Positions 16,016-32,838 of a stretch of 64,000 nucleotides of DNA are shown here, one piece after another. The stretch is from Agreia sp. COWG (GTDB lineage Bacteria; Actinomycetota; Actinomycetes; Actinomycetales; Microbacteriaceae), in NCBI RefSeq assembly GCF_904528075.1, contig NZ_LR882035.1, forward strand, positions 930,001 through 994,000. The letters are read 5' to 3'. Position numbers and translations under genes: made by a program. Every line of letters begins with the position of its first letter. Within the stretch, counting starts at the first letter, position 1. The notes beneath the pieces are model-generated. The model made no database searches and had not been told where the DNA came from. It was given only the letters and a program-made list of their open reading frames with translations.

Positions 16016-16077
16016 GTCTCATAACTAACGTCTAGCACCCGGAATCAGGGCTGAAGTTTCGAGACATAGTTATGAGA
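16016..16077. repeat. Degenerate copies of the GTCTCG element after recG
   Basis: 28 bp after the recG stop. GTCTCATAACT at 16016 and TTTCGAGAC at 16057-16065 resemble the 16-bp module of the 42-bp elements. There is also an 11-bp perfect inverted repeat, TCTCATAACTA (16017-16027) and its complement at 16067-16077. It marks the left edge of the accessory region. Confidence 0.5.
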
Positions 16078-16142
16078 ATCGCGCCGTTGCTGCGCGGAGC
16101 AGGAACTGCCTCAAAAGCTGGTTCTTCGGCGCCGTTGCTGGG

Positions 16143-16184
16143 CTGAGCCGGATGATACGTCTCGTAGCTCTAGGGATACGAGAC
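16143..16184 (-). repeat. 42-bp GTCTCG element E1 (degenerate)
   Basis: Read on the minus strand: 16-bp module GTCTCGTATCCCTAGA, then a 26-bp half in which an AT sits exactly between two 12-bp arms (16155-16156). The dyad arms are poorly conserved. Separately, ACGTCTCGTA and TACGAGACGT form a perfect 10-bp inverted repeat around 16159-16186. Confidence 0.45.
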
Positions 16185-16282
16185 GTCCTCCCCCCCCTTG
16201 GGAGGTTGCGTAGAGCGGCGTGCTACTGAAGGGTGAGGACGGGCACTCTCAGCCGAGTGATGTTCACGTGTTGGGGGAACAA

Positions 16283-18733
16283 ATGAATGAACTATCCGAA
16301 CTGACGCTTGAGGATCTCGCCGCATCTCTTCGCGCCGAGGCGGGATCAGGAAAAAAGGCCGACACGGCGGCGTGGGACACCCTCATACAGATAGCTGACG
16401 ATCTAAACAGCGGCGATCGAGTGGACCTACTGACGAGAAATCGGAGGTGGCTTTTGCGCCAGGTCTCGGTCATCGGATTCCGGGGAGCGAAACATGAAGT
16501 CAATCTCACGATCGACAACCTCCAGGGAGTCACCGTCTTGTTCGGCGAGAACGGCTCGGGTAAGTCCAGTCTTGCGGAAGCAGTGCGTGTAGCCCTCGAA
16601 GGACGGACGGGTGCGACCCATCTTGGAAGCAGCGGACATGTCCATGAACTTTGGGGCGCTCATGATCAGCGAAGTCAAGGCGTTGAAGAGTCGACCGTAA
16701 AGGTGGTTCTCGTCGACGAGGCGACGACCGACTCTCTATCGATATGCGCAACAATCACCGAATCTGGGGTTAAACGAACGGGGGTCCTCGAAAGTGGCGC
16801 AGAGCAGTTCGAGCTGAACGACACATCCGCGGCATGGAGGGCTTGGGCAGACTCCGTTCGAGCATCGCCTCCGGTACTTGCCTACGCGGAGCTCGCCGAT
16901 GAACTGCAGAAAAAATCGGATCTTCAGATCTGGCTTACGTCGTGCCTGGCCATGGACAACGCGAGCCGCGTTTTTGATTCCCGGGTTAAGGCACAGGTCG
17001 AGGCGGCTTCAAATGCGGAGAAGGCCATAATCGCTGCCAAACAGACCGCAACTCGCGCGGTCGGCGAAGTCGATGAAGAAGCGTTACGTCAGGGCCTGGA
17101 GGGAATCGACCCGCTTGAGTGGATTGAATTGAACTCTCGCGAGGAGCTAGCGGGTTGGCTTGACGCTCGTCAGCTCGCAGAACGGCAAAAACTCGGCAAC
17201 CACCTTGATTCTGGATTTCTTATTACGGTCCCGGCCTACGGCGCGGCGTTCCTAGCAGCTTGGGATGCGTGGTCAACGGCTGCAACTAAGGCGCTATTAA
17301 CCGCACAGGTAACGGATTCTCTTGTTGAGATGAATTCCCGAGTCATCAGCTCCGGACAGGGCGACAACGAGGGGATTTGCCCGACCTGCGGTACCTCGCA
17401 CACTGATTGGCGGCGTCACCTGCGGGATGAAGCAGCAAGGCTCACTGAAGCGCAGAATGCCGCTGCTGAGCTTAAAAATCTTGTCCGCCGAAGCCGGACC
17501 GATTTGATAATCCCACTCAGTACCTGCCTGCTTGTACTGCCTCCTGAATTCGATGCCGGTCAAAAGTCAGGCCTAAAAACTTTGCTCGATGAAGCGGTAG
17601 CTGTTCTTCAGAGCACCGATGATTTGAACATTAATCTCCTCACCGCGATCCACAGTCTGGCTAAGTGGAGCGAGCGGCCCGAAGCGCTCCCGCTAATGGA
17701 GGCGGCCTTGGCGGCTTCCGGCCTCGAACACGAGTGGCGCTGCAACCGTTGGGACGCGGTCAGTCCCTACCTGGCAGCCTTTGACGCGAACATCGATCTT
17801 GCCGGCAAAACTGCAACCTTAAAGAAGGCGCGGGGGAAGTGGAATAGTCATCTCGCCCGGATTAGGGGAGAACGAAGCTCCAGTCTTCAAGCTCTCGTGG
17901 GACCGGCTGTCGCGTCACTGCTGGGAGACGTCGGAATTTCCGTGTCCGCGATCGACATCACCAAATCGGAAAGCAGACTTGAGCTTCAAAACGCGAAAGG
18001 GGAGAGCGTAGAGCTCGCACATCTCAGCGCCGGTCAAAGAAATGCACTGATTCTCGGACCAGTGATTGCGACGGCGGAGTCAGGGATCTTCGCTTTTTCC
18101 ATTTTGGACGACCCCGTGCACGCCTTCGACGATTTCCGAGTCGACAAGCTGTCTTCAACGTTGGCTGAAATTGGAAGAAACCAATCACTTGTGCTCACCA
18201 CGCATGATGCACGCTTTGTCGAGTACCTGCGAGTCCACGCAACTCTAGCCTTCGTTGTCCTCGCGACAACTCGAGACGAAGACGGCCAGATGACACTAAC
18301 TCCGACGCTGGACCCCCCGGCGGAACTCATAAAATTCGGCCGCAAACTCGCAAACGAGCTACGCAAATCACAGGCATCCGAGGGCCGCGCTGAAATCACG
18401 GCACTCCTTCGCATGGCCCTAGATGAAGCGCTTGAGACTGTTGCTCTCCGCCATTTTGCGAGACTCACCGCGGTCGCGGCAAAGACCGACCGTGAAGTTT
18501 TCGACCAGGCGATGTTCACCTCGGAGAGGAAGCAAGTTCTAAGGGGCTTTCTTGCCGACAGCCCCCCACAGTTGGGCTTACTAACGATGGCCTGGCAGAA
18601 AGTCTCAACCTCAGCTCGACGCTGGTCTGATTCAGTCCATGACCCATCTGCGGTCCCTGACCCCGATCAGTTGGATTCAGATTTCGACACCGCTGAGGAA
18701 GCGATCGAATTACTTCGGGGGATCCATTGGTGA
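16283..18733 (+). CDS. SMC/Rad50-like AAA ATPase, possible defence protein
   Basis: 816 aa from an ATG preceded by GGGGGA. Motifs: FRGAKHEVNLTID, Walker A GENGSGKSS (about 87-95), one CPTCG zinc-hook-like motif (about 365) flanked by helical coils, ABC signature LSAGQRNALIL (about 580), Walker B FSILDDPVHAFDD (about 606-618) and H-loop TTHD (about 638). This is the ABC-type head-hook-head layout of RecF/Rad50-like ATPases found in many phage-defence loci. About 170 extra helical residues follow the ATPase head. Third codon positions are clearly less GC-rich than in flanking core genes, a sign of transfer. The stop overlaps the start of a small partner gene. Confidence 0.85.
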   Translation: MNELSELTLEDLAASLRAEAGSGKKADTAAWDTLIQIADDLNSGDRVDLLTRNRRWLLRQVSVIGFRGAKHEVNLTIDNLQGVTVLFGENGSGKSSLAEAVRVALEGRTGATHLGSSGHVHELWGAHDQRSQGVEESTVKVVLVDEATTDSLSICATITESGVKRTGVLESGAEQFELNDTSAAWRAWADSVRASPPVLAYAELADELQKKSDLQIWLTSCLAMDNASRVFDSRVKAQVEAASNAEKAIIAAKQTATRAVGEVDEEALRQGLEGIDPLEWIELNSREELAGWLDARQLAERQKLGNHLDSGFLITVPAYGAAFLAAWDAWSTAATKALLTAQVTDSLVEMNSRVISSGQGDNEGICPTCGTSHTDWRRHLRDEAARLTEAQNAAAELKNLVRRSRTDLIIPLSTCLLVLPPEFDAGQKSGLKTLLDEAVAVLQSTDDLNINLLTAIHSLAKWSERPEALPLMEAALAASGLEHEWRCNRWDAVSPYLAAFDANIDLAGKTATLKKARGKWNSHLARIRGERSSSLQALVGPAVASLLGDVGISVSAIDITKSESRLELQNAKGESVELAHLSAGQRNALILGPVIATAESGIFAFSILDDPVHAFDDFRVDKLSSTLAEIGRNQSLVLTTHDARFVEYLRVHATLAFVVLATTRDEDGQMTLTPTLDPPAELIKFGRKLANELRKSQASEGRAEITALLRMALDEALETVALRHFARLTAVAAKTDREVFDQAMFTSERKQVLRGFLADSPPQLGLLTMAWQKVSTSARRWSDSVHDPSAVPDPDQLDSDFDTAEEAIELLRGIHW

Positions 18734-19068
18734 CGATGCTGCCCTACGAAATCAAGCGAGAGGCTCTTCATCTGAGACGCGCAGTCGAAGCAATCTCAGT
18801 GGACATCTGGGTCACTTCTTCCGGTCTGCCTCGAACTCAAGTATCGACAGGCGTCGTCGAAACTCGGCTACTCCTGCTCGTCTCGAAGGCGGACGACCAT
18901 CTCCGACTTGAGGCATTCAGGGTCGCTAGACAAGCGGCGCGCGTATATAGCGAGACGTCAGATGTCCTTCATGGACGCACGCGGGCCTCACGGTTCCAAA
19001 GTGTCCATTTGGAAGAATGGAAAGCTGATTACGCCCGCCTTGAAGCCCTCTGGACGATCTTGAGATAA
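18730..19068 (+). CDS. Small partner of the SMC-like ATPase (HEPN-like helical protein?)
   Basis: 112 aa from a GTG overlapping the ATPase stop (GTGA); an ATG two codons on is an alternative. Helical by composition. The segment ARVYSETSDVLHGRTRASRF (about 77-96) has the hydrophobic-then-LHGRT pattern seen in some HEPN-like domains, but I cannot confirm the fold. The translational coupling implies a complex with the ATPase, as in two-gene ATPase-effector defence systems. No membrane segment. Confidence 0.7.
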   Translation: MTMLPYEIKREALHLRRAVEAISVDIWVTSSGLPRTQVSTGVVETRLLLLVSKADDHLRLEAFRVARQAARVYSETSDVLHGRTRASRFQSVHLEEWKADYARLEALWTILR

Positions 19069-19127
19069 ATCTCTCGAGGGAATGAGACCGTGCGTTCAGC
19101 CGTAACGAGCTGCTGATGTTCGAGAGT

Positions 19128-19169
19128 GTCTCGAAACTTATGTGTGCCGGAACCCATAGGTTGTGAACC
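19128..19169 (+). repeat. 42-bp GTCTCG element E2
   Basis: 16-bp module GTCTCGAAACTTATGT followed by the 26-bp dyad: left arm GTGCCGGAACCC, centre AT (19156-19157), right arm AGGTTGTGAACC. It lies 60 bp after the ATPase-partner stop. Confidence 0.65.
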
Positions 19170-19334
19170 TCTGTCACTCTCCTGTTTGATCAGCCATAGG
19201 GCGGACGATGGTGCGGAGGTATCGAGGATGCGCCGGCTCCAAGATATCTCCGGACGGCCCGGCTGCACCGATTTTCGTGCCGACGTAATTGGTGTGAACA
19301 GCGATCTAGCCAATTCGACAGCAGTCTCCAGGAG

Positions 19335-19340
19335 TAGGTT
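19335..19340 (+). promoter_or_regulatory. Predicted leaderless promoter of the 160-aa gene
   Basis: TAGGTT ends 6 bp before the ATG at 19347; no ribosome binding site is placed to serve that ATG. Confidence 0.45.
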
Positions 19341-19346
19341 CGCCGT

Positions 19347-19829
19347 ATGAGTGAGCTGCGCGATGAGTATCTGCTGAACCTCGACGCATTAGAACTCGCA
19401 TCTCAGCGAGTGCAGCTCGCCTACACGGGAAAACGAATCGAAGCCGCGGCGATTGAGGCACACTTTGGTCTTCACGCCGTCTACGACCTTCACGAGGCTT
19501 ATTTCAAGCATCAGGGCATCGCGGACATGCGCGCCCAGGACGACCACCTCGACTCAACCCAGGGAGGTCAATCAGTCGGAGCACTGGCTCTAGCACGCGG
19601 CGCTCGAACGCACCAGCTGGTGACGGTGGCCAGAACGGGTGGATTCGGCGATCTGCCGTACGGTATGGGACCTTACGGTGGCGGGTGGATATGGAAAGAA
19701 AACACCTGGAAGTCGCAAAGATTTGCACGCCGAGCTGCCTGGTACGAGCAGCGCGTTAGATGGCGGTACCTTCATAGTCCGCTCGACGACGCCTGGGGTT
19801 GGTTTCTTGATCGCATTCCCTCGGTGTGA
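19347..19829 (+). CDS. Hypothetical protein
   Basis: 160 aa, not recognised. N-terminal half is helical (LNLDALELASQRVQLAYTGK); the middle is Gly/Tyr/Trp-rich (FGDLPYGMGPYGGGWIWKEN), then Arg/Trp-rich (RRAAWYEQRVRWRYL). No signal peptide or membrane helix. It stands alone between elements E2 and E3, each within about 180 bp, so it looks like a single-gene insert. Codon use fits a real gene. Confidence 0.65.
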   Translation: MSELRDEYLLNLDALELASQRVQLAYTGKRIEAAAIEAHFGLHAVYDLHEAYFKHQGIADMRAQDDHLDSTQGGQSVGALALARGARTHQLVTVARTGGFGDLPYGMGPYGGGWIWKENTWKSQRFARRAAWYEQRVRWRYLHSPLDDAWGWFLDRIPSV

Positions 19830-20004
19830 CCGTTGCCTCCACGTCTAATAAATGGGACGGGATCGCTGTCGCTTTGACTGACCCTCACAGCGGGACTTTT
19901 AAGCCGCAAGCTGCAATGCAGGCACGGAACTGCACCAGCGCAAGAATTCCCTAAAGCGCGTCTGAAAGCTTTATCTCCGGGTTCTCAGTGCGACCCGATG
20001 AGAC

Positions 20005-20046
20005 GCCTCTAAACCTATGGCTTTCGAGGCACTGAGGATACGAGAC
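20005..20046 (-). repeat. 42-bp GTCTCG element E3 (inverted orientation)
   Basis: Read on the minus strand: module GTCTCGTATCCTCAGT, then dyad arms GCCTCGAAAGCC and AGGTTTAGAGGC around a central AT (20017-20018). The two arms match each other at 9 of 12 positions. Orientation is opposite to E2, E4 and E5. Confidence 0.6.
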
Positions 20047-20081
20047 ACCAGAACGTACCGGGAGTGCCACGAAAGTGCCCT

Positions 20082-20093
20082 TTAGACGATCGT
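20082..20093 (+). promoter_or_regulatory. TTAGACGATCGT motif, copy 1
   Basis: One of four copies of this palindrome-centred motif in the accessory region (the others are near 24139, 24209 and 25236). It resembles TetR-type operators, but could be a recombination or other protein-binding site. Confidence 0.4.
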
Positions 20094-20157
20094 CACCCGA
20101 GGCACGGCAAGACCCTCTGACTCCCTTTCCTCCGTCGACCTCCGGCAAGATGGATGC

Positions 20158-20496
20158 ATGGTCGACACCGGTCCGCACACCGTCCACTTCCACCAGAAGC
20201 ACCACGAAGCGATCATCAGCGGAGAGAAGGTCACCACCGTCCGGTGGAACGAGTCCGTGCAGGTCGGCGCGGCGACGTTCGTCTTCGACGACCACCCAAC
20301 GGCCGAACCGGTGGCCGGCACCGTCACCGCCGTGCAGCGGTACCGGCTCGACACCCTCACGGCCGAGCAGGCGCACCAGCCCGCGGGGACCGACATGCAG
20401 CGCTTCGGGCAGCAGGTCCGGGAGAACTACTACCCCGACATGCCGGACGACGCCGTCGTCGAGGTGGCCGAACTCGCGACCAGACGGTCTCGATAG
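20158..20496 (+). CDS. ASCH-domain protein (copy 1)
   Basis: 112 aa. ASCH core residues: FHQKHHEAIISGEKVTTVRW (about 11-30), a FVFDDHP turn and a C-terminal YYPDMPDDAVVEVAEL helix. ASCH domains are PUA-like folds that bind RNA or nucleosides; some hydrolyse modified cytidines. A close paralogue is encoded in inverted orientation at 36458-36823. Both have CAAGATGG starting exactly 12 bp before the start codon, suggesting leaderless expression. This copy ends about 9 residues earlier, with an unrelated TRRSR tail. Confidence 0.82.
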   Translation: MVDTGPHTVHFHQKHHEAIISGEKVTTVRWNESVQVGAATFVFDDHPTAEPVAGTVTAVQRYRLDTLTAEQAHQPAGTDMQRFGQQVRENYYPDMPDDAVVEVAELATRRSR

Positions 20497-20699
20497 CCGA
20501 CCGCTCTGCGGGCAGGCGCCTCAGAGGCAGGGTCTTCATCGGCCAGTGCCGATATTTTTGCTCTTATTGGACCGGGGTCGTAGAAGATACTGCCGCTTGG
20601 TTGGTGTAAGTCGACGTCCAGAAGGTTCGGCAGTTTCGACAAACGAAGATCGTGTACCCGATGCGGCTTTGCCGTTCTAGACCTGAAAGGAGCAGATAT

Positions 20700-21182
20700 A
20701 TGTCCAGCCTCGAAATCCGGGCCGCTCAGAGATCTGATTCCGCGAACATCCTGCAATTCATTAAAGAACTCGCGGCGTACGAAGAGTCCGAGAGCGAAGT
20801 CGTCGCCACGCTGGAAGGAATTGAGAAGAGTCTGTTTGGCGAATCCGCCACGGCTCACGCCCTGATTTGCCAAGTCGAGGACGGGCCGATCGGCTTTGCA
20901 GTCTACTTCTACAACTACTCGACCTGGCAGGCCCGGAACGGACTCTACTTAGAAGACCTGTGCGTCTCACCCGACCGCCGAGGACTCGGCGCCGGCAAGG
21001 CGATCTTGCGCCACCTCGCAAATCTCGCGCTTCAGAACGACTGCGGGCGATTCGAATGGAGCGTCCTCGTGTCGAACTCGCCCGCCATTCGCTTCTATGA
21101 CGGAATCGGAGCCAGACCAAAGACCGAATGGCTCGGCTATCGTCTCGCCGGAGACGATCTTGAAGGGTTCGCTCGCGGTTGA
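20700..21182 (+). CDS. GNAT acetyltransferase, diamine (SAT1-like) type
   Basis: 160 aa from the ATG with GAAAGGAG upstream. N-terminal RAAQRSDSANILQFIKELAAYE, the YLEDLCVSPDRRGLGAGKAI acetyl-CoA loop (Q/RxxGxG/A as RRGLGAG, about 94-113) and VSNSPAIRFYDGIGA match spermidine/spermine or thialysine acetyltransferases. Likely acetylates a small amine; the substrate is not shown by sequence. Its stop is followed immediately by a degenerate dyad and a 66-bp tail repeat shared with the 27.9-kb site. Confidence 0.86.
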   Translation: MSSLEIRAAQRSDSANILQFIKELAAYEESESEVVATLEGIEKSLFGESATAHALICQVEDGPIGFAVYFYNYSTWQARNGLYLEDLCVSPDRRGLGAGKAILRHLANLALQNDCGRFEWSVLVSNSPAIRFYDGIGARPKTEWLGYRLAGDDLEGFARG

Positions 21183-21273
21183 CTGTGATCGCCATGCGCT
21201 GCACGACGGTTCCAACTCCCACCGCGCCACCGAGCGATCTCAGAACACAGCCATCTATCGATCAAGTCCACAG
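21182..21273 (+). repeat. Degenerate dyad plus 66-bp tail repeat, copy 1
   Basis: From the last base of the GNAT stop: a 26-bp stretch with central AT (21194-21195), then a 66-bp tail beginning GGTTCCA and ending ATCAAGTCCACAG. The tail matches 27938-28003 without gaps, with about 12 visible mismatches. The serine recombinase gene begins 78 bp downstream. Confidence 0.6.
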
Positions 21274-21350
21274 TGGGCGTCGGAGGTTTCCGGTAGACCT
21301 GTTCCGGTGATAGTTCCGGTGACGGGGCCATAAACGGAAGGGTGCGGAGC

Positions 21351-21974
21351 ATGACGGGTCTACTGGTGGGGTACGCGAGGGTATCGACCGACAAGCAAGA
21401 CTCGACGTCACAGCGGGATGCGCTGACGGCCGCGGGCGTCGCTCCTGGCCTGTTGTACGTCGATGAAGGGCTTACCGGCTCCACCAGGGCGCGGCCGGCG
21501 CTGCGGGAAGCCATGGCGGCCTGCAGGGCCGGCGACACCCTCATGGTGACTCGGCTCGATCGTCTGGCGCGCTCAGTGCCGGACGCTCGCGACCTGGTCG
21601 ACGAGCTCACGCGCAAAGGTGTGCGGTTGCGTATCGGTGAGAGCGTGCACGATCCCGAAGATCCCACGGGCTGGCTGCTCTTCAACGCCCTGGCCATGGT
21701 CGCGGAGTTTGAGGCCGATCTCATTCGAGCTCGCACTCGAGAAGGCATGCGCGTGGCCAAAGCGAAGGGGAAACTGCGGGGAAAGAAACCGAAGCTGACC
21801 GCTGCCGTTGAAGGGCACCTGGTCGCGGAGTATCACGGCGGGGACTACTCGATCAATGAGCTCGCCCGCCGGTACGACGTCGGCGTGGCCACTGTGTACC
21901 GGGCGGTGGAACGAGCGGCACAGAAGACGCCAGCTGCTGCTGTCACACTCGCGCTCCCCCGCGCCGACATCTAA
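21351..21974 (+). CDS. Small serine recombinase (resolvase/invertase family)
   Basis: 207 aa. YARVSTDKQ carries the catalytic serine (Ser12), followed by the RLDRLARS arginine motif (about 69-76), a long E helix (AEFEADLIRARTREGMRVAKAKGKLRG) and a C-terminal helix-turn-helix (SINELARRYDVGVATVYRAVER). Size and domain order match Hin/Gin invertases and Tn3-type resolvases, which cut two-base-centred inverted repeats. Upstream, GTTCCGGTGA is present twice in tandem (about 21300-21325). No transposase gene is adjacent. The 26-bp dyads with AT centre around this locus are candidate targets. Confidence 0.92.
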   Translation: MTGLLVGYARVSTDKQDSTSQRDALTAAGVAPGLLYVDEGLTGSTRARPALREAMAACRAGDTLMVTRLDRLARSVPDARDLVDELTRKGVRLRIGESVHDPEDPTGWLLFNALAMVAEFEADLIRARTREGMRVAKAKGKLRGKKPKLTAAVEGHLVAEYHGGDYSINELARRYDVGVATVYRAVERAAQKTPAAAVTLALPRADI

Positions 21975-21975
21975 G

Positions 21976-22245
21976 TTATTTGCGCTGGCGTACGGCGGCG
22001 ATATGAGCGTTGACGAGGTCGGCAAGCGCTCCCAGCTGCTCGCCCTCCCATACGCGCTGCTCATCGGTGATGTATTCACCCACCAGGGCGCCGTTAAGAA
22101 CCTCGTCCCGGATTTTGCGGATCACCTGGAAGATCAGTTCGCCACGCTGTTCGGGCGAAATGAGCAAGGCTGCGAAACGGGCCTTATCAATTGCCTCGGC
22201 AGTGAACTGGGCGCCGAAGTCTGGGATTTCTGGGGTGTTTGTCAT
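21976..22245 (-). CDS. Hypothetical protein convergent with the recombinase
   Basis: 89 aa, starts MTNTPEIPDFGAQF, acidic and helical, ends VRQRK one base from the recombinase stop. Not recognised. It fills the interval between the intact recombinase and the duplicated recombinase fragment, so it probably travelled with it. Confidence 0.6.
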   Translation of the reverse strand: MTNTPEIPDFGAQFTAEAIDKARFAALLISPEQRGELIFQVIRKIRDEVLNGALVGEYITDEQRVWEGEQLGALADLVNAHIAAVRQRK

Positions 22246-22373
22246 TGTTTGAGTATGTCGGCGCGCACACTCGCACCATAGGTGTTGACCTCAACACGTG
22301 TGGATATGTTGGGACGCGGAGTCCCGCCCCCGCCTCTAGGAACATCTCGACCGTGGCTATTCTTTCGGCATGT

Positions 22374-22619
22374 ACGCGAGAAGGCATGCGCGTGGCCAAA
22401 GCGAAGGGGAAACTGCGGGGAAAGAAACCGAAGCTGACCGCCGCCGTTGAAGGGCACCTAGTTGCGGAGTTCCGCGGCGGTGACTACTCGATCAATGAGC
22501 TTGCCCGCCGGTACGGCGTCGGCGTGGCCACGGTTTATCGCGCCGTCGAACGCTCAGCGAAGAACGATTCTGCTACAGCCGTCGCCGTCGCTCTCCCCCG
22601 AACGGATGCGCTGGGCTGA
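22374..22619 (+). pseudogene. Duplicated 3' fragment of the serine recombinase gene
   Basis: From 22374 the DNA matches the recombinase gene from 21735 almost base for base for about 180 bp, covering the end of the E helix and the helix-turn-helix (TREGMRVAKAKGKLRGKKPK onward). The catalytic domain is absent and upstream codons are unrelated. The frame is open and could yield a DNA-binding-only peptide, but no good start signal is seen. The two copies are offset by 639 bp. Confidence 0.8.
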
Positions 22620-22644
22620 TCGTGTGACCATCGGCCGCCCGAAA

Positions 22645-22860
22645 CTACTTCGAACGGATCACTTCTTGCCAGGCGCCGGGGCCGAATGCGCGGATGCGCT
22701 CCGGGGTGATGATTCCCGGATGCAAGTACAAGACAGACAAGACGCCGTCCTCGATGGTTTCGAGCTCGTTGATCCTAAGGACCCGGGCTATGGAGCTCGG
22801 CCGGGCGAGGGGCGGTGCCAATGGCGGATCAGGATGCGCGAGCTTGTCCGCGGTGTGGTC
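22645..22860 (-). pseudogene. Unidentified coding remnant
   Basis: An open stretch of 71 codons without a start, bounded upstream by a stop. It has protein-like composition toward its end (RINELETIEDGVLSVLYL, then HPGIITPERIRAFGPGAWQE). It looks like the 3' part of a gene whose front is lost; the family is not recognised. Confidence 0.4.
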
Positions 22861-22888
22861 CTATTTCGCAGTGAGTGTCTAAACGTCG

Positions 22889-23407: not shown

Positions 23408-23661
23408 TCTGACTATTTCTTCTGCGTCAGAAGCGTGTCGGGAGAGGGCCGCGCGTCAACGGGATGCCTCGTACTCGTGGGACGCTCGCAGCTGAGCCAC
23501 GGTGGCACCGGCGTATGACACGGAAACCACCCATGTTTAGCGAGGCCTGGAAATAGCATCCTCCACAGGAGGCTCAAGGTGCAGCCAGGTGGCCGCGACC
23601 ATTGTCGCGATATCGAGGATTGCTGCGTCGGAACGGCGCCGGAAGATTCGAGGCACGGTCA

Positions 23662-24099: not shown

Positions 24100-24138
24100 A
24101 ATACAGAGCCCTCCATATCTGTGATTAATGAGCTTTCG

Positions 24139-24783: not shown

Positions 24784-24849
24784 CTCACCAGCCGCGATGC
24801 TCGCGGACCTTCATTGAACGCAGCTCAGGACCAGTGCTTTTAGTCAGGA

Positions 24850-24865
24850 GGGGGAGCGCTCCCCC
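24850..24865. terminator. GC-rich palindrome downstream of the secreted-protein gene
   Basis: GGGGGAGCGCTCCCCC, 66 bp after the stop of the upstream gene. It could form a strong hairpin, but no U-run follows, so termination is only likely. Confidence 0.4.
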
Positions 24866-25016
24866 CTGCACAAGTTATTGACCGACCCACTCGAATATCA
24901 AGCGAAAAGCTCGACGTGAACACAATGTTCACGCGACGTAACCTCCCGTTCACACAAGACCACGGCCTGCGATGGACGGGTGGAGCACGCATTCTCACCG
25001 GAGTGAAACATCGCTC

Positions 25017-25206
25017 AGCAGCATCGCGACCAGGACGGCTCGGGAACGGCAGCGTGTGCGAGTCGAATCAGCAGACCTGAAAGAAACTCACTCGTTTGAG
25101 CCCATGTCTGGACCAATTGTGTGAACGCGTTCTGGTTGAGTGCTGGCAGTCTGTACACCATATAGAAACCACAAAACACCGCCACCGAGCGATCAAATCC
25201 ACAGGT
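25017..25206 (+). repeat. 190-bp direct repeat, copy 1
   Basis: Nearly identical to 25800-25989, with four visible mismatches in 190 positions. The right end (ACCGCCACCGAGCGATC, then AATCCACAGG) resembles a shortened form of the 66-bp tail repeat found at 21208 and 27938. Confidence 0.9.
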
Positions 25207-25275
25207 CTACGATTTCGCGTCAGCTATGCCGGGGAACGATCGTCTAACGGGACACGCAGGCTTGCCCGTGGATGG

Positions 25276-25728: not shown

Positions 25729-25799
25729 GACAGCACTCTAGAACAGCACCGCCCGGCCGAGCCGGCTACCGGAACGTCAGGGCTTGCTCCGAGTCGCGT

Positions 25800-25989
25800 A
25801 GCAGCATCGCGACCAGGACGGCTCGGGAAGGGCAGCGTGTGCGAGTCGAATCAGCAGACCTGAAAGAAACTCACTCGTTTGAGCCCATGTCTGGACCAAT
25901 TGTGTGAACGCGTTCTGGTTGAGTGCTGGCAGCCTGTACGCCATATAGAAATCACAAAACACCGCCACCGAGCGATCAAATCCACAGGT
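25800..25989 (+). repeat. 190-bp direct repeat, copy 2
   Basis: Second copy, 783 bp downstream of copy 1. It ends 35 bp before the start of the next GNAT gene, so it probably supplies that gene's upstream region. Confidence 0.9.
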
Positions 25990-26024
25990 CGTGAGGGCGA
26001 TGAGGGTGCTGTCAAGCTGATCGC

Positions 26025-26492
26025 ATGCCGATCATCCTGGTGCCAATCAACGCGCAACGGTTCCCCGCGTGGAAGGAACGATGCCACGCCGAGTACAAAG
26101 CAGACTTAATCGCGGCTGGTGAGGCGCTACACGTTGCCGACCAGCACGCCACCGGCTCTCTCGAGCGCGCCTTTCCCGATGGCGCACCCGCCGCGGACAA
26201 CGCTGTGTTCGATCTCGTCCACGACGAAGATGGCACCGTTGGATACGTCTGGATCGGTCGCGACAGCTCAGGTGACCCCACTTCGTGGTGGGTCTGGGAC
26301 GTTCTAGTCGAGCCTGAGTACCGCGGCAAGGGCTACGGACGAGCGGCGATGCGGCTCGCTGAGCGCCATGCCCGAGAGGCAGGCGCACGGACGCTGGGTC
26401 TGAGTGTGTTCGGCCACAATGAGGCCGCGCGCGGACTGTACGAGTCGGTTGGGTATGAAACAACGACCGTCAAGATGCGAAAACAGCTCTGA
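26025..26492 (+). CDS. GNAT-family N-acetyltransferase
   Basis: 155 aa. VWDVLVEPEYRGKGYGRAAM (about 90-109) contains the canonical RGKGYG acetyl-CoA loop, and FGHNEAARGLYESVGYETT follows as the beta-5/alpha-4 segment. N-terminal half holds a negatively charged strand (FDLVHDEDGTVGYVWIG). Substrate unknown. It is the third acetyltransferase gene within 6 kb. Confidence 0.87.
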   Translation: MPIILVPINAQRFPAWKERCHAEYKADLIAAGEALHVADQHATGSLERAFPDGAPAADNAVFDLVHDEDGTVGYVWIGRDSSGDPTSWWVWDVLVEPEYRGKGYGRAAMRLAERHAREAGARTLGLSVFGHNEAARGLYESVGYETTTVKMRKQL

Positions 26493-26650
26493 TGCCAGCA
26501 TGAACGGGCCCGGGCGCCTTTTGAGCGGAGCGTATACGGGCATTAGCTCGATGCCTCATGGCTACGTGCCGGCTGAGGGACGCACGCGACTTTGAGACGG
26601 TGGGAGCCCTTTCTGTCATGTCCTAGGTAAGGAACGATGGCGAGGACGTT

Positions 26651-27262
26651 ATGACTGAGAATCTGAAGTCAGAGCTCGAGGCGGCAGATCCCACGCGCGG
26701 ATCTAAGCGATCGAACACGCACGACATTGTGCGGCGCATGTCGGACGAAGCCCATCGAGCCACTGTCCTTGACAGCAGCCCTATGAGAGCGCGGTGGTGG
26801 CGCAGCCGCCGAGGAATGGCCCTTCTCGCGTTTGCTGGAGCGTTGGCGCTCACTGGAGCAGCGGTAGCGATTCCGCTGACGATGTGGGCTGATGGCGCTC
26901 CAGTGAAACTTGATGTGGAAATTCCTATCGCTTACACAACTGACACTGGCGTCGACATAACTTGTGAATATGGGATCTACTTCGGTACCCCAGCGAACAG
27001 GACCGATTCTGACGAGAAACTCGCCGACTTCGTATCTGAACACGATTGGGTGGGTATTGGACAGCGCATCTACGACAAAGCGATCGAGAACCCGTTCACC
27101 CCCGGCCCAACCGACGCCTGGGAAGTCGACACCCAGGCCCTCCGCGACAAAACGTCCTTCATTCAGGCAACTGACTTGATATGGGACGAGATCCCAGCCG
27201 AGCTTCAACAAGACGGTCAATCAGCCAACGCCACGATGAATTGCACAGGGCAACTTCACTGA
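26651..27262 (+). CDS. Single-pass membrane protein, putative anti-sigma factor
   Basis: 203 aa. A charged cytosolic N-terminus of about 55 residues, one membrane helix (GMALLAFAGALALTGAAVAI, about 55-74), then an external domain of about 125 residues with two cysteines. Overlap with the ECF sigma factor gene (TGATG) implies an anti-sigma role by context, though no zinc-binding HxxxCxxC motif is visible. GAGG precedes the ATG. Confidence 0.7.
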   Translation: MTENLKSELEAADPTRGSKRSNTHDIVRRMSDEAHRATVLDSSPMRARWWRSRRGMALLAFAGALALTGAAVAIPLTMWADGAPVKLDVEIPIAYTTDTGVDITCEYGIYFGTPANRTDSDEKLADFVSEHDWVGIGQRIYDKAIENPFTPGPTDAWEVDTQALRDKTSFIQATDLIWDEIPAELQQDGQSANATMNCTGQLH

Positions 27263-27867
27263 TGCGCCGCCGACCAATTACTTCTGAGCAGCGCGCCTGG
27301 GTCGAGAGCGTCGTCGAGGACCAGGCCGATGACCTTCTCCGCTATCTGAGGCGTCGAGTGAACCAGCCCGAAGATGCGGCGGATCTGCTCGGCCAGGTGC
27401 TGCTTACGGTCTGGGCGGGCGCCGATCGAGTGCCGGCGACAGCACAAGACGCTCGAATGTGGTGCTTCGGTATAGCCCGTAACGTGAGCCGAGAGTCCTA
27501 TAGGCATGCTGCCAAAAAACTGGCTCTCGCGGACGAGCTGCGGGATGACCTTCGACTCACCGCGGGCGAGGACAACTCTGCAGCGATCGTCGCAGAAGCT
27601 GGTCTGAGGGCAGAAAATGTGCGTCGAGCGGTAGGCACCCTAGATGAGCGGTCTCGTGAGCTCATCAGACTCGTGCATTGGGACGGGTTCAGCATTGCAG
27701 AGGCTGCTCGTCTGATGGCAATGAACGAGTCCACCGCCCGCACTCGCTACGGACGAGCGCTGCGGAGAATCGAGGGCCAGCTCCACAATGTGCCGGCTAA
27801 CACCGGCCGCCGAGACCCGGCGTCCGTGCAGGATCGACCGAATCCTGCGCTCGATGGCGGGCAGTAG
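27262..27867 (+). CDS. ECF-type RNA polymerase sigma factor
   Basis: 201 aa. Region 2 is seen as LLRYLRRRVNQPEDAADLLGQVLLTVW with the FGIARNVSRESYR end, and region 4 as LDERSRELIRLVHWDGFSIAEAARLMAMNESTARTRYGRALRRI. This is a compact sigma-70 family protein lacking regions 1 and 3. Translationally coupled to the upstream membrane protein. Its regulon is unknown; the gene ends 28 bp before element E4. Confidence 0.85.
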   Translation: MRRRPITSEQRAWVESVVEDQADDLLRYLRRRVNQPEDAADLLGQVLLTVWAGADRVPATAQDARMWCFGIARNVSRESYRHAAKKLALADELRDDLRLTAGEDNSAAIVAEAGLRAENVRRAVGTLDERSRELIRLVHWDGFSIAEAARLMAMNESTARTRYGRALRRIEGQLHNVPANTGRRDPASVQDRPNPALDGGQ

Positions 27868-27895
27868 CCATTTGCTCAATTCCACCGGGCCCCCA

Positions 27896-27937
27896 GTCTC
27901 GTAATCTAAGTGGCTGGAAACCCATGGGATACGAGAC
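27896..27937 (+). repeat. 42-bp GTCTCG element E4
   Basis: Module GTCTCGTAATCTAAGT, then dyad arms GGCTGGAAACCC and GGGATACGAGAC around AT (27924-27925). Located 28 bp after the sigma-factor stop and directly continued by a 66-bp tail repeat. Confidence 0.65.
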
Positions 27938-28003
27938 GGTTCCACTTCTCACCGCGCCATCGAGCGGTCACAGAACGCCTCCATGTACCAATCAAGTCCA
28001 CAG
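27938..28003 (+). repeat. 66-bp tail repeat, copy 2
   Basis: Follows E4 without a gap. Same length as 21208-21273 and about 80 percent identical by eye, with the block ATCAAGTCCACAG fully conserved. No recombinase gene is attached here. Confidence 0.65.
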
Positions 28004-28088
28004 ACGCGGCAACGGTCGAGGCGTGCTTTGGCCGAGCGTCTTGCGGGCATGTGCGTCGTGTGGCGTGGATTGGTGAACCACTGATCGG

Positions 28089-29324
28089 CTAAGGCGAAAC
28101 GGGCCGTGGCGGGGAGGCGCTGGCGCCATCCGGAACCCCCGCAGCCTGATGACGGGTCCTGACGAGACCAGCAACGATCGCGATCACAACCAGAGCGACA
28201 TCCAGCGCCCCGTACACGATCGCGGTGGGTTCGAGGCCGAAGCGCTCGACGGCGAGGCCCGCCACCAGCGCCGGGACGCTGAAAGCGATATAGCTGACGA
28301 TGTACATCGTCGAGAAAACTTGTCCACGCTCGGCATCCGGAGCTGCCTCACCCAGCGCGCCGACGGCGAGGCGGAAGGTCGCACCGAAACCGAGACCCGC
28401 GATCGCCGAACCGACGATATACAGCGGCGTACCGGCCATGACGAGTGCCGCGATCGTGATCAGCACCCCGAGAACCAGTGTTCCGTAGCCGAACAGCGTG
28501 CCCAGGCGCGGGGGAAGAAATGCCGAGATGGCTGTGCCGACCGTACCGGCGATGAAGAAGACCCCGAGCACGAGGCCGATGGTGAAGTGGCTCTGCACGC
28601 CGAGTACGGTGCCGAGGATCGACGACCCGAGTGACAGGTAAAGGCCGCCCAGGGCCCAGGTCGCGGCGATCGACGGGACAAGGGCGAAGAAGATGCTTCT
28701 TGCAGCGGGAGGAAGCCCGATGCTCGGCAGGAGCGACCGCCAGATCGAGTGGGCTGTGGGGCTGTCTGGGCGGACGCGTTCTGGAACCAGCCAGATGAGA
28801 GCGGCGATGACCAGATAGCTGACAGCCAAGATCCAGAACACCAGCTGCCGAGGGAAGGGCGCGAATTCGACCAGCGCGCCGGCGAGCACGGCTCCGATCG
28901 CGATTCCCAATGACGGGATCGCGCTGCTGACAAGCGAACCGGAGCGGGCGCTCGGCGCTTTGTCGATGATCATCGCCGTGAAGGTGCCGGTGGCGGCACC
29001 GACCGCAAAACCCTGCACGAGTCGCGCCGCTACCAGAGCGCCCGTACTGTCGGCCATTGCGAAGAGAACCATGCCGAGGGTCAGCAGAACAAGAGAGGCC
29101 GACGCGACGGGGCGGCGCCCGATCCGGTCGCTCAGAGAACCGACCGTGAGCAGAGCGACGAGCAACGCGACGACGTAGGCCGCGAAGATAACCGTCAATA
29201 TGAACGATGAGAAGCCCCAGAGCCGTTGGTAGACGGGGTAGAGCGGAGACGGAGCCGATGCGGCGGTCAGCGTCGCCGCACCGGCGAGGCCAGCGAGCGC
29301 AAATGACATGGGGCGAGAAAGCAC
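28089..29324 (-). CDS. MFS drug/metabolite efflux transporter
   Basis: 411 aa from a GTG with GGAGG 5 bp upstream. Twelve hydrophobic helices are apparent; the MFS loop signature is GSLSDRIGRRPVA (helix 2-3) and motif-C-like glycines occur in helix 5 (SSAIPSLGIAIGAVLAGAL). Likely exports a toxic compound. It is divergent from a TetR gene, with a 22-bp palindrome in the shared region overlapping the transporter leader, so TetR repression is the natural model. Confidence 0.87.
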   Translation of the reverse strand: MLSRPMSFALAGLAGAATLTAASAPSPLYPVYQRLWGFSSFILTVIFAAYVVALLVALLTVGSLSDRIGRRPVASASLVLLTLGMVLFAMADSTGALVAARLVQGFAVGAATGTFTAMIIDKAPSARSGSLVSSAIPSLGIAIGAVLAGALVEFAPFPRQLVFWILAVSYLVIAALIWLVPERVRPDSPTAHSIWRSLLPSIGLPPAARSIFFALVPSIAATWALGGLYLSLGSSILGTVLGVQSHFTIGLVLGVFFIAGTVGTAISAFLPPRLGTLFGYGTLVLGVLITIAALVMAGTPLYIVGSAIAGLGFGATFRLAVGALGEAAPDAERGQVFSTMYIVSYIAFSVPALVAGLAVERFGLEPTAIVYGALDVALVVIAIVAGLVRTRHQAAGVPDGASASPPRPVSP

Positions 29325-29337
29325 GGTACCTCCGTCG

Positions 29338-29359
29338 TAAAGCAATGATCTTTGCTTTA
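29338..29359. promoter_or_regulatory. Probable TetR operator
   Basis: A 22-bp dyad: TAAAGCA, 8-bp spacer, TGCTTTA. A half-site-like repeat (TTAAAGCAA, 29382-29390) lies 30 bp further on, nearer the TetR promoter. Both sit between divergent tetR and MFS genes. Confidence 0.65.
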
Positions 29360-29400
29360 GAAACATAAGCACTGCCGTTGGTTAAAGCAAATTTTGTTGC

Positions 29401-29406
29401 GATAAT
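29401..29406 (+). promoter_or_regulatory. Predicted leaderless promoter of the TetR gene
   Basis: GATAAT, extended by TGC just upstream, ends 6 bp before the ATG at 29413. Confidence 0.55.
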
Positions 29407-29412
29407 TTGGTC

Positions 29413-29976
29413 ATGTCATCTGCTGAAGCGTCGACTCGGCCCGGTGGTCGGAGTGCGAGAGTTCTGAACGCGATCTACACCTCCGTGGGCGAGCTCGTCG
29501 GTGAGGGAACCGAGAAGATCACCTTTCCACTCATCGCCGAGCGCGCAGGAGTCAACCCGACCACGCTGTATCGCCGATGGGACGATATCGACGCTCTGCT
29601 CGAAGAGGTCGCCGTCGCGGCGCTGACGCGAGAGGGTGACCCGATTCCCGACACGGGCACCCTCGAGACGGATCTCACGGAGTGGGCACTCATCATCACC
29701 AAGGACATCTCGCGGCCACACCGCACACGGTATCTGCGAGCGATGGTGGCAGCGCGCGCTGAGATCGTCTCGAGTTGCTCTGTGATGGAGCGGCGGCGCG
29801 AGCAGGCGGCGGAGATGGTGCGTCGGGCATCAGGGCGTGGACAAGAAGCTCCGACCGTCGGGCAGATCCTTGACCACATCGTCGCACCGCTCTATCACCA
29901 TGTCGTCTTCGCCCTTCCTGTCGACGAGGATTATGCACGGCTACTCGTTCGCGACGTGCTCTCGATGGTGCGCTGA
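29413..29976 (+). CDS. TetR-family transcriptional regulator
   Basis: 187 aa. The N-terminal helix-turn-helix reads ARVLNAIYTSVGELV, then FPLIAERAGVNPTTLYRRWDDIDALL (about 45-65), typical of TetR. The ligand-binding C-terminal domain is helical. It probably represses the divergent MFS gene and itself through the TAAAGCA dyad, with the transported compound as inducer. The start at 29413 is preferred because of the leaderless -10 box. Confidence 0.9.
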   Translation: MSSAEASTRPGGRSARVLNAIYTSVGELVGEGTEKITFPLIAERAGVNPTTLYRRWDDIDALLEEVAVAALTREGDPIPDTGTLETDLTEWALIITKDISRPHRTRYLRAMVAARAEIVSSCSVMERRREQAAEMVRRASGRGQEAPTVGQILDHIVAPLYHHVVFALPVDEDYARLLVRDVLSMVR

Positions 29977-30306
29977 GTCCGAGTCGACCCTCGACGAAGG
30001 GTAGGGTTTCGAGACGCTCAATCGTGTTGCAGAGAGGGCACCTTTTCGGGCAATGAAGTCGGGCGGGGTAAACGTTCATCCCGGCACTGGCGTGCCGGCA
30101 GCTTTGCAGAACAGACGATGACGCCCGTTGAGGGACCGTCTTTCGGGCGTGGATAGTGAATCGGTATGCGGCAGGTCTGGACGCGTCCAGCTGAACACAG
30201 ATGCGGTAGCTTTATCGCAGAGGGAAAAATCCCGCCAGGCTCCGGCCGGCGGAAACGTACAAGCGTCTCGTGGGAGTCGCCACTTCTTCATCGAAGGAGT
30301 GCGCCC
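29977..30306. other. Gene-free stretch with half-element and palindrome
   Basis: About 330 bp. At 30004-30015 GGGTTTCGAGAC matches a dyad arm of the 42-bp elements, just after the tetR stop. A perfect 14-bp palindrome (CTGGACGCGTCCAG, 30177-30190) may be an operator for the downstream transporter. ACGCCCG (30121) and CGGGCGT (30144) form a small hairpin. Confidence 0.5.
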
Positions 30307-31776
30307 ATGTACGAACCCACCACCTCTCCAGCCGCAGCGGCCCCACCGCAGCGTCTCCGCGACGCGTGGATTCCGCTGGCCGGCCTCTCGGCGGTGTTCC
30401 TGTTCGAGATGCTCGATAACTCCGTCTTGAACGTGGCGCTTCCGACCATCGGGCGCGAGCTGACGGCGTCCACTGCGTCGCTGCAATGGGTCTCGGGCGC
30501 GTACTCGGTCGCGTTCGGCGGTCTGATGCTGCTTTTCGGCGCGGTCGCAGACCGTGTCGGCCGACGTCGGGTGATGCTCGTCGGCCTGACGCTGCTCGCG
30601 GTCGTGAGCATCCTGACCCTGTTCGTCACCTCGGTGGAGCAGCTGATCCCCGTGCGGGCGCTGATGGGGCTCGCCGCGGCGATGACGACGCCGGGATCGA
30701 TGGCGTTGGCGTTCCGCCTGTTCGATGACGACGACCTGCGCGTGCGCGCCCTGACGGTCATCTCGACCGCGGGGCTGGTCGGCTTGGCCGTCGGGCCCAC
30801 CATCGGCGGGTTCGTGCTCGCCGTGGCACCGTGGCAGGTGCTCATCCTCGCCAACGCGCCCATCGCGGTGGTCGCCTTGCTCGGGATCCGAGCCGGGATC
30901 GCTGCCGATCATCGAACCGGCCTCCACCTCGACCCCGTCGACGTTATCGGCGCCGTCCTGGGCACGGCGACCGTCGTCGGCATCCTTCTCACACCGACCC
31001 TGTTCGTCGCCGGCACCGACGTCGCTCTGGCCTGGGGCGCAGCGGTGGCCACCGTGGCCGCAGCGGTCGGCTTCGTCGCCCGACAGCGCACCGCGCGCCA
31101 CCCGCTGCTGGAGCGGCGTCTCGTCGCACAGCCGCTGGTCGCCAGCGGCCTGGCCTACAAGGCGGCGGCCGGGCTCGCGATGGCCGGGCTGTCGTACATG
31201 GTCACGCTGCAGTTGCAATTCGCCTGGGGGTGGACACCGGCCCTCGCCGCCGTCGGCACGCTGCCGCAGGTCGTGGTGCTTCTCGCGAGCGGCCGCTTCG
31301 TCGGTCCGTTCGTGAAACGGGCGGGCCTCGATCGAGCGGCCTGGATGAGCGCTGCCGCCGTGATTGCCGGACTCGCCGTATTCGCACTCCTCGGCCGATT
31401 CGGCTACCCCTGGGTGCTGGTCGCCCTCGTGCTCGTCGCCGCAGGGATGCGGGTGGTCGGAGTCGTCGCCGGAAACAACGTGCTGCGCGGCCTTCCTGGG
31501 GATCGCACCTCCGTCGGGGCGGCTCTGGTCGATACGGCCAGCGAGATCGCGACCGCTGTCGGGATCGCCGCGACCGGCACGATCCTCGCCGCTCTCGTCG
31601 GCAGCGGTATCGCGACAATGACCTTCACCTCGGATCAGCTCGCGTCATTCCAGCAGGCGATCCTCATCGCGGGCCTGACCATCACCGCCCTCGCGGCCGC
31701 GCTCGTCTGCATCGGTATCCACCGTTCGCGCCGCACCCCCGCCCAGCCCACCACCCAGGAGCCTTCCTATGTCTGA
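30307..31776 (+). CDS. MFS transporter, DHA2 (EmrB/QacA-like) family
   Basis: 489 aa, about 14 membrane helices. Signatures: FLFEMLDNSVLNVALPTIG in helix 1 (motif D1), GAVADRVGRRRVMLVG in the 2-3 loop (motif A) and AGLVGLAVGPTIGGF (motif C), all of the drug:H+ antiporter type. GAAGGAG precedes the ATG. The stop overlaps the hydrolase gene start by 8 bp, so the two are co-translated; the pair may detoxify and expel an ester compound (inference). Confidence 0.9.
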   Translation: MYEPTTSPAAAAPPQRLRDAWIPLAGLSAVFLFEMLDNSVLNVALPTIGRELTASTASLQWVSGAYSVAFGGLMLLFGAVADRVGRRRVMLVGLTLLAVVSILTLFVTSVEQLIPVRALMGLAAAMTTPGSMALAFRLFDDDDLRVRALTVISTAGLVGLAVGPTIGGFVLAVAPWQVLILANAPIAVVALLGIRAGIAADHRTGLHLDPVDVIGAVLGTATVVGILLTPTLFVAGTDVALAWGAAVATVAAAVGFVARQRTARHPLLERRLVAQPLVASGLAYKAAAGLAMAGLSYMVTLQLQFAWGWTPALAAVGTLPQVVVLLASGRFVGPFVKRAGLDRAAWMSAAAVIAGLAVFALLGRFGYPWVLVALVLVAAGMRVVGVVAGNNVLRGLPGDRTSVGAALVDTASEIATAVGIAATGTILAALVGSGIATMTFTSDQLASFQQAILIAGLTITALAAALVCIGIHRSRRTPAQPTTQEPSYV

Positions 31777-32761
31777 CCTCATGCCCCGCCCTCCGTTCGA
31801 TCCTGAGCTCGCCACATTCCTCGCCGCCCTCGAGGCACGCGGGCCGTTGACCCTGACCACCGAGATGCTGCCCCGGATGCGCGTACTCGACATCACCGAA
31901 GAAGCGCTCGACGAGCGGCTGCGGTCCCGCGGATACGAGCGGCGAACGCTGACGGTGCCCGGCCACCTCGGGGATCCGATCACCCTCGCGGTCATCCAGC
32001 GGATCGGCCGAACCGGAGTCACGAGCGCGGTGTACACGATTCACGGCGGCGGGATGATGTTCGGCCACTACCTCGGCAACCTCGACTTGTACGACGACTG
32101 GCTGCTGGACGACCACGACATCGTGCTCATCAGCATCGACTACCGCCTTGCCCCTGAGTACCCCGACCCTTATCCGGTCGAGGACTGCTACGCCGGGCTC
32201 GTCTGGGTGCACGCCCACGCCCGCGAGCTCGGCATCGACCCCGAGCGCATCGTGATTGCCGGGCAGAGTGCCGGCGCCGGGCTCGCCGCCGGCACCGCCC
32301 TGCTCGCTCGCGACCGGAAAGGGCCGGCGCTCCTGGCGCAGATCCTGGTGTCACCCATGCTCGACGATCGCGACTCCACCGTGTCGACAAGGCAAATCGA
32401 CGGTGTAGGGGTCGCGGATCGGCAGATGACCTGCTTCGGCTGGGACGCCTACCTCGGCGCCCGACGAGCAGGCGGGGACGTGTCTATCTACGCAGCACCC
32501 GCGCGAGCGACCGACCTCTCCGGACTCCCGCGCACCTACATCGACTGCGGAAGCGCGGAGGTCTTCCGCGACGAGACGGTCGCCTATGCCACCGGGCTGT
32601 GGGCTGCCGGTGGTGACGCGGAGCTGCACGTGTGGCCGGGAGCATTCCACGGCTTCACGAGCATGATGCCGACCGCCACCATCTCGGTGAGCGCAACCGC
32701 AGCGCTGGCCGACTGGACCCGGCGACTTCTCGGTTCAGGTGCCCGCCAAGGGATGATCTAA
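31769..32761 (+). CDS. Alpha/beta hydrolase, hormone-sensitive-lipase type esterase
   Basis: 330 aa. HGGGMMFGH forms the oxyanion hole, SIDYRLAPEYPDPYPVEDC precedes the nucleophile elbow GQSAG (Ser near 168), and GAFHGF near the C-terminus supplies the catalytic His; the Asp is in the DETVAYA region. This is the family IV carboxylesterase/acetyl-hydrolase group. No signal peptide, so it is cytosolic. Overlap with the MFS gene implies a shared substrate. Confidence 0.88.
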   Translation: MSDLMPRPPFDPELATFLAALEARGPLTLTTEMLPRMRVLDITEEALDERLRSRGYERRTLTVPGHLGDPITLAVIQRIGRTGVTSAVYTIHGGGMMFGHYLGNLDLYDDWLLDDHDIVLISIDYRLAPEYPDPYPVEDCYAGLVWVHAHARELGIDPERIVIAGQSAGAGLAAGTALLARDRKGPALLAQILVSPMLDDRDSTVSTRQIDGVGVADRQMTCFGWDAYLGARRAGGDVSIYAAPARATDLSGLPRTYIDCGSAEVFRDETVAYATGLWAAGGDAELHVWPGAFHGFTSMMPTATISVSATAALADWTRRLLGSGARQGMI

Positions 32762-32796
32762 CGGGCACCTGCCTCGCACTCCCTGATGGTTCCGGT

Positions 32797-32838
32797 GTCT
32801 CGAAACTTATCCGTCTCGAAACCCATGGAATACAACAC
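32797..32838 (+). repeat. 42-bp GTCTCG element E5
   Basis: Module GTCTCGAAACTTATCC, then dyad arms GTCTCGAAACCC and GGAATACAACAC around AT (32825-32826). The first 10 bases occur twice, 16 bp apart. It is 35 bp after the hydrolase stop. Confidence 0.65.

Follow-up and report, generated by a model that had tools for sequence, protein, structure and literature searches.

The DNA considered here, hereafter the window, is a 64,000-nucleotide stretch of Agreia sp. COWG (NZ_LR882035.1, assembly GCF_904528075.1, positions 930,001–994,000 of the forward strand), in which a variable locus of 21.0 kb (15989–36994, no strand assigned) separates a recG gene from an ABC-F gene. This locus contains a res-like site that carries no recombinase gene of its own and four copies of a 42-bp element that we call type A, and among its passengers are a RecF/SMC-type ATPase with a partner of 113 amino acids (aa), two GNAT genes, a sigma factor, an MFS transporter, a hydrolase, and, probably, a small serine recombinase, P0001. 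From its sequence, we read the locus as an orphan platform site with four type A sites beyond it, one being inverted, and with no gene for the cognate enzyme nearby. Comparison with related genomes leads us to propose that type A is probably a recombination site that marks the ends of tandem gene cassettes in genomes of the family and on plasmids of Micrococcales, and that it would be moved by small serine recombinases of a group that we call a-class.

The copies of type A lie at 19128–19169 (plus strand, right arm decayed), 20005–20046 (minus strand), 27896–27937 (plus strand, the best copy), and 32797–32838 (plus strand, 3′ of an alpha/beta hydrolase gene), each recognized by pattern and by weight matrix. 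A preliminary description of the window had named the same four as its main copies, and the build that it gave, a 16-bp module followed by a 26-bp dyad of 12-bp arms around AT, is borne out, with a half-site preceding the dyad. Across the four copies 20 of the 42 columns are invariant; a pattern covering bases 1–33 of the element and tolerating at most 3 mismatches finds nothing but these copies in the window (0.00 expected from shuffles), and a weight matrix made from 12 copies gave 0 matches of at least 10 bits in 20 shuffles of the window. When 79 collected sites were compared, overlapping lower-scoring matches within 16–20 bp having been dropped, the block of conservation was found to be the 42 bp GTCTCgtAACCTnngTGtCTCGaAACCCATGGGaTacGAGAC, outside which just a preceding GT is conserved; a 66-site matrix excludes the 13 of these 79 sites that score under 40 bits. 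Two of the weaker copies that had been proposed did not hold as elements: the one at about 30004 is a lone half-site, the second arm of which matches at 4 of 12 positions and the total score of which falls inside the shuffle range, and the one at 21182 is a decayed right half with its flank alone, 79% like the sequence to the right of the 27896 core. Most of the elements had further been said to follow a stop codon by 28–60 bp, which among the four main copies is true of those at 19128, 27896, and 32797 and false of that at 20005.

The remaining weaker copy, placed after recG, is real but of a different kind, being not a weak type A but a complete three-part res site at 16016–16184 on the minus strand, 28 bp after recG, with site III at 16016–16030, site II at 16056–16080, and site I, with a TA core, at 16159–16184. 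It aligns across sites I–III with the leader of the a-class recombinase gene of the same genome and with 9 other copies, its spacer between I and II being 23 bases longer than in the gene-linked res sites, and res-like sites without a gene also follow the recG copies of the genomes G002 and G006 (G numbers denote genomes and L numbers loci; G000 is the Agreia genome itself). The a-class gene of G000, P0002, lies at C1:2526206–2526811 and encodes a small serine recombinase with Resolvase (PF00239, 4e-36) and HTH_7 (PF02796, 3e-10) domains, for which the closest solved structure is the DNA invertase 4m6f (1e-33), which we take to be Gin. Leaders of a-class genes contain a dyad at about −160, for example GTCTCGTATCCC-TA-GGGATACAAGAC (site I), a direct pair of GTCTCATAACTACGTCGCATAACC (site II), and an inverted half-site nearest the gene (site III), and all three are made of the half-site found in type A. 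Among 43 such leaders, the three-part res is clear in many and decayed or absent in others, and the core of site I is TA, TT, or AT, mostly TA, with AT in three (L238, L257, and L259).

Type A is sparse in its distribution. When up to 3 mismatches are allowed, the Agreia genome (3.44 Mb) has 5 copies; 4 of these fall inside 14 kb, and the fifth, a full 42 bp at C1:3245434, lies between TetR and MFS genes. At up to 2 mismatches the element occurs in 5 of the 8 genomes of the genus and in 22 of 398 genomes of the family (10 of 85 genera), the other 376 having no match; the count of 22 is an underestimate, with diverged copies adjoining a-class genes in G332, G205, and G249 being missed at this threshold. 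The family search returned 49 places for the type A pattern versus 1 for a reversed-pattern control. Plasmid records with type A number 11 at E ≤ 1 (Arthrobacter, Cryobacterium, and Paenarthrobacter), of which 7 cover at least 80% of the query, and the phage collection, searched with the element at E up to 1, gave no match; a megablast of a 20-kb region of the window against plasmids gave 2 weak and uninformative matches. At some loci the element stands as an isolated single copy, and in the cases inspected it is intergenic.

The enzyme most likely to be cognate, judged by co-occurrence and by the arms of the sites, is the a-class recombinase represented by P0002. Its class is found in 12 of the 22 genomes with the element versus 30 of the 376 others (42 of 398 overall; p = 1.2e-7, uncorrected for relatedness), and the association persists when the genus of Agreia itself is left out (11 of 17 versus 30 of 373); the 42 genomes are those with a match at E ≤ 1.2e-46 and at least 53% identity, G173 (67%, partial) and matches of 41–47% being excluded. 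In 40 a-class loci picked by protein alone, with flanks of up to ~9.5 kb a side and less at contig ends, type A lies upstream of the gene in 5, always antiparallel to it (one of these five sites has an AC core instead of AT), and downstream in 0 over a similar length. Adding seven array loci, which were not chosen independently, brings the count to 28 sites upstream, 25 of them antiparallel, and 8 downstream. The arms of sites and platforms also covary in a few cases: where site III reads GGGAC, the nearby type A sites start with GTCCC in 3 of 3 cases, from two genomes of one genus, versus 4 of 25 sites elsewhere (p = 0.01), a comparison set that includes 7 sites of L150, where site III was not recognized; in genus g74 the right arm of type A has GCG in 4 of 4 sites versus 3 of 69 elsewhere, and site III has GCGA in three of four leaders. 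Being few and drawn from related sites, these cases would lend support to the a-class enzyme rather than proof.

In several of the element genomes, type A copies follow one another on the same strand at spacings of 0.4–4 kb, and the longest arrays comprise 8 sites in L140, 7 in L142, and 6 in L139, all on one strand within each locus, while L150 and L161 have sites of mixed orientation with one strand prevailing. Neighboring sites less than 4 kb apart are on the same strand in 36 pairs and on opposite strands in 4, so that inversion, which the preliminary description had led one to look for, is unlikely to be the usual outcome; the median length of the same-strand intervals is 1,085 bp (n = 34). 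Site pairs thus bound tandem units with a common site in one orientation, the orientation of the genes inside being not uniform. A Pfam family could be assigned to 9 of the 19 array proteins tested, and the families met with are an AFG1-like ATPase, a tautomerase, GNAT, a winged-helix regulator, LysE, a sigma factor, a CAAX protease, and a YoeB/YefM pair. A table of gene families common to several loci was kept out of the evidence, since it is tilted toward recombinases by loci that had been retrieved for carrying one. On a Cryobacterium plasmid (LW097), six tandem sites lie among genes annotated as 2′-5′ RNA ligase and AAA ATPase, with GNAT, Fic/VbhA, and VOC genes before the first site, an annotated aminoglycoside 6-adenylyltransferase just past the last, and a gene for a second class of small serine recombinase, b-class, beyond the array. 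We also observed a second dyad, with a TA-type core, 58–86 bp downstream of many type A sites (L142, L150, L140, L161, and L191), mostly scored in the opposite orientation. In L194, from a plasmid of Arthrobacter sp. NicSoilB8, annotated genes for a Mu-type transposase and TniB (4347–8041) end ~1 kb from a type A site, a pair reminiscent of res-targeting transposons.

Signs of movement come from comparing flanks. The recG-to-ABC-F locus measures 21.0, 16.5, 10.7, and 8.4 kb in the congeners where it carries sites (G000, G002, G003, and G006) and 2.5, 3.6, 1.4, and 6.8 kb in those where it carries none (G004, G005, G007, and G001). A unit of ~670 bp with a 122-aa open reading frame lies between two type A copies in both G002 and G003, where the 723 bp including both sites are 94% identical; the flanks are unlike, the unit standing beside the MFS gene in G002 and beside the ABC-F gene in G003, in opposite orientation. 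Since this unit lies inside one and the same recG-to-ABC-F variable locus in both genomes, the case that it makes for movement is somewhat weaker. Flanks exchanged at the core are seen most sharply in G281, in which an identical stretch of 106 bp (100%) is fused at the central dinucleotide to a type A left half (AT) in one place and to site I of a recombinase (TA) in another; two contigs are concerned, and both end within the common 106 bp. L142 and L143 likewise have one flank common to AT and TA sites, at lower identity than in G281. Within the window, the right flank of the best copy (27938–28003, plus strand, a block ending in CACAG) is shared with a block plus decayed right half-element upstream of the P0001 gene (21192–21273, plus strand), the two being 79% identical over 82 bp with homology from the AT core onward, and with flanks in other genomes. 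The block (GCGATCACAGAACACCGCCA...CACAG) contains direct repeats, often ends in CACA(G), and also forms the right flanks in L099, L100, L102, L103, L104, L122, and L159. Partial second copies of the 3′ end of recG occur at L268:14892–15124 (G002), L272:5153–5376 (G006), and L267:3800–4380 (G001), which suggests islands that integrate at recG and restore its end in doing so.

Small serine recombinases act by cleaving both strands and swapping the halves through subunit rotation, and of the three dimer-binding sites of Tn3 res only site I is cut, sites II and III being architectural (PMC9943657). In the mechanism that we propose for type A, the a-class recombinase would bind the dyad (arms GTCTCGAAACCC and GGGATACGAGAC) and cut it at the central dinucleotide, and the extra half-site 16 bp upstream would fix the orientation in the manner of an accessory site. 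Recombination between direct type A sites would then delete the cassette as a circle, and such circles could re-enter either at another type A site or at site I of the predicted platform that precedes the a-class gene, composed of site I (a 12-2-12 dyad), site II (a direct pair of half-sites), and site III (one half-site, inverted). Clusters of sites without the enzyme could be relics, comparable to the site clusters that lack an integron.

A number of points weigh against this proposal. Binding, cutting, circles, capture, and the role of the extra half-site are all steps that we infer from sequence. Exchange between type A and site I is not straightforward, because the core is AT in the one and mostly TA in the other, and serine recombinases normally require matching cores, so that mismatched cores should ligate poorly; countering this, the same flanks are found with both AT and TA cores, and three a-class leaders have a site I with AT. 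The a-class gene of the Agreia genome lies 1.56 Mb from the sites of the window, at the threshold applied 10 of the 22 element genomes are without an a-class gene, and one element genome (G148) has no Resolvase-domain match at all. No type A was found in the fetched flank of 35 of the 40 protein-picked loci, the upstream-side test taken alone gives p = 0.06, all 8 sites of L140 lie downstream of the a-class gene, and site III reads GGGAC in other genera as well (L239, L241, and L258), where no type A was found nearby. The genes in the intervals show no strand bias relative to the site (26 same, 18 opposite, p = 0.29), and 8 of the 34 intervals have no called gene, the array genes having been taken from a home-made rough caller that missed the 122-aa open reading frame of the L101/L102 unit. 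Finally, some of the homology blocks run on for ~60 bp from the core and stop at CACA(G), a boundary for which the proposal does not account.

The recombinase encoded within the window itself, P0001 (21351–21974, plus strand, Resolvase plus HTH_7), had been put forward as a possible enzyme of the system, and the available comparisons make it probably a passenger. It was set aside as the cognate enzyme, which it is unlikely to be, because the 420 bp before its gene contain no matching dyad, because an element lies within ~6 kb in 4 of 80 close relatives, and because the association of its class with the element is only weak (7 of the 22 genomes with the element versus 59 of 398 overall, p = 0.03). 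The preliminary description had regarded scatter of the element through hundreds of unrelated loci in genomes lacking the recombinase as counting against a link; occurrence in genomes without the enzyme is what we see for P0001, the class of which is missing from 15 of the 22, and in part for P0002 (10 of the 22). Just downstream of the P0001 gene, its 3′ part is repeated in a copy of 85% identity (22374–22600). The b-class recombinase (MRLLGYTR...) adjoins the a-class gene in the Agreia genome, where the two genes are convergent, each with a res-like leader of its own (G000 C1:2526206–2527562; L105:6207–7569). It was rejected as the enzyme on the arm of its leader (GTCTCAGAAAAG), which differs from that of type A; related b-class leaders have a 28-bp dyad of another arm sequence.

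Among other explanations, the sites might be decayed or partial res sites left behind as resolvase-carrying transposons or plasmids inserted again and again, the units between them being ordinary flanking DNA without any cassette exchange. We consider this unlikely. The 42 bp of type A make up a definite form (58 dyads having a CATG centre) and not a broken res, decay would not yield one-strand arrays of 6–8 sites, and a unit that retains both its sites in new surroundings is not what decay leads one to expect; such an origin does accord with the presence of res I–II–III both beside a-class genes and as orphans, with the second TA-type dyad downstream of many array sites, and with the confinement of the G002/G003 unit to one variable locus. 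A distinctly less probable account accepts the cassette arrays and gives their movement to another enzyme, whether b-class, P0001, or a tyrosine recombinase for which the site would have a 10-6-10 layout. In its favor are the b-class genes past the array of the LW097 plasmid and next to the a-class gene of the Agreia genome, the fit of the site to 10-base arms around a CCATGG spacer, and the tyrosine recombinases that G128 and G197 have within ~2 kb of a site, against which stand the different arm of the b-class leader, the weak association of the P0001 class, and the covariation of the arms with the a-class res; moreover, 10 of the 22 element genomes have a gene with a Resolvase domain within 10 kb of a site (G001 and G251 counted by gene fragments and G203 by a broken gene) versus 2 of 22 for tyrosine recombinases, with similar totals of the two.

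The preliminary description had also kept in play a family of intergenic repeats like the repetitive extragenic palindromic (REP) sequences, and such repeats, whether resembling REP sequences, bacterial interspersed mosaic elements (BIMEs), or miniature inverted-repeat transposable elements (MITEs), would be without a recombination function. The intergenic position of type A in the cases inspected, its partly palindromic build, and the isolated single copies are all in keeping with this, which we nevertheless regard as highly improbable. REP sequences and BIMEs number tens to hundreds of scattered copies per genome, and type A is not REP-like because the 3.44-Mb genome holds 5 copies, 4 of them in 14 kb; the lack of a match in 376 of 398 family genomes and the covariation of the arms with recombinase res sites point the same way. 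We accordingly rejected a REP-like family on copy number.

If type A is a cassette-end site served by the a-class enzyme, one of its closest likenesses is to integrons, and we tentatively suggest, with doubt slightly outweighing belief, a serine-recombinase counterpart of the integron in which the res-derived site I would take the place of attI and double-stranded type A that of attC, with a pool of cassettes shared across chromosomes and plasmids of Actinomycetota. The likeness includes a recombinase gene divergent from the sites with the platform site between them in five loci (L161, L162, L139, L166, and L150, of which L166 has one type A site and L150 a broken recombinase gene), small gene units that stand in tandem and have a site apiece, passengers of the toxin-antitoxin and acetyltransferase kinds, and clusters without a recombinase. 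The differences are a serine instead of a tyrosine recombinase, a site of 42 bp, and a gene orientation that is not uniform. An identity with integron attC was rejected: the boxes RYYYAAC and GTTRRRY are both present in 0 of 66 sites (element plus 10 bp each side), with GTTRRRY in 0 and RYYYAAC in 6 of the 66 within the 42 bp. DNA folds of both strands, computed for 3 sites, gave z from −1.3 to −4.05 and no common structure. PF00589 was found within 10 kb of sites in G128 and G197 only, of the 22 element genomes, no IntI-specific model having been run.

Type A differs from other known systems as well. With Tn3 resolvase and its res it has in common a small serine recombinase and a three-part res upstream of the gene, with site III nearest the gene; the additional dispersed sites, made of a half-site and a dyad with an AT core and bounding gene units, set it apart. 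The hix, gix, and cix sites of Hin, Gin, Cin, and Min have the same 12-2-12 geometry, and the suggestion that type A has the geometry of a serine-recombinase site within a cassette-like system is supported; the closest solved protein of P0002 is likewise named a DNA-invertase, whereas the neighboring sites here are mostly direct and no single invertible segment was seen. The pdif modules of Acinetobacter plasmids are small gene modules between short, 28-bp dif-like sites, a likeness to the units described here, and differ in using the tyrosine recombinases XerC/XerD.

A search of the open-access literature, which leaves most subscription papers and all preprints outside its reach, found no serine-recombinase cassette arrays. 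According to the IntegronFinder 2.0 paper (PMC9024848), Actinobacteria are without complete integrons and have no more than one lone integrase and a few site clusters. If the proposal is true, a cassette platform that uses an unrelated recombinase would account for the way in which these bacteria bring small accessory genes together in arrays, the genes including acetyltransferases, toxin-antitoxin pairs, transporters, and, just past the last site of a plasmid array, an annotated aminoglycoside 6-adenylyltransferase. It would amount to a convergent solution to gene capture, an integron made from unrelated parts in a group (Actinomycetota) nearly without true integrons, for which the 42-bp site would provide a searchable mark, and it would pose the question of how sites with AT and TA cores swap partners.

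Two further features of the window concern its passengers and repeats. A 197-bp direct repeat, 97% identical, is formed by 25011–25207 and 25794–25990, and the RecF/SMC-type ATPase, encoded with its 113-aa partner at 16283–19068, matches defence ATPases no more than weakly.

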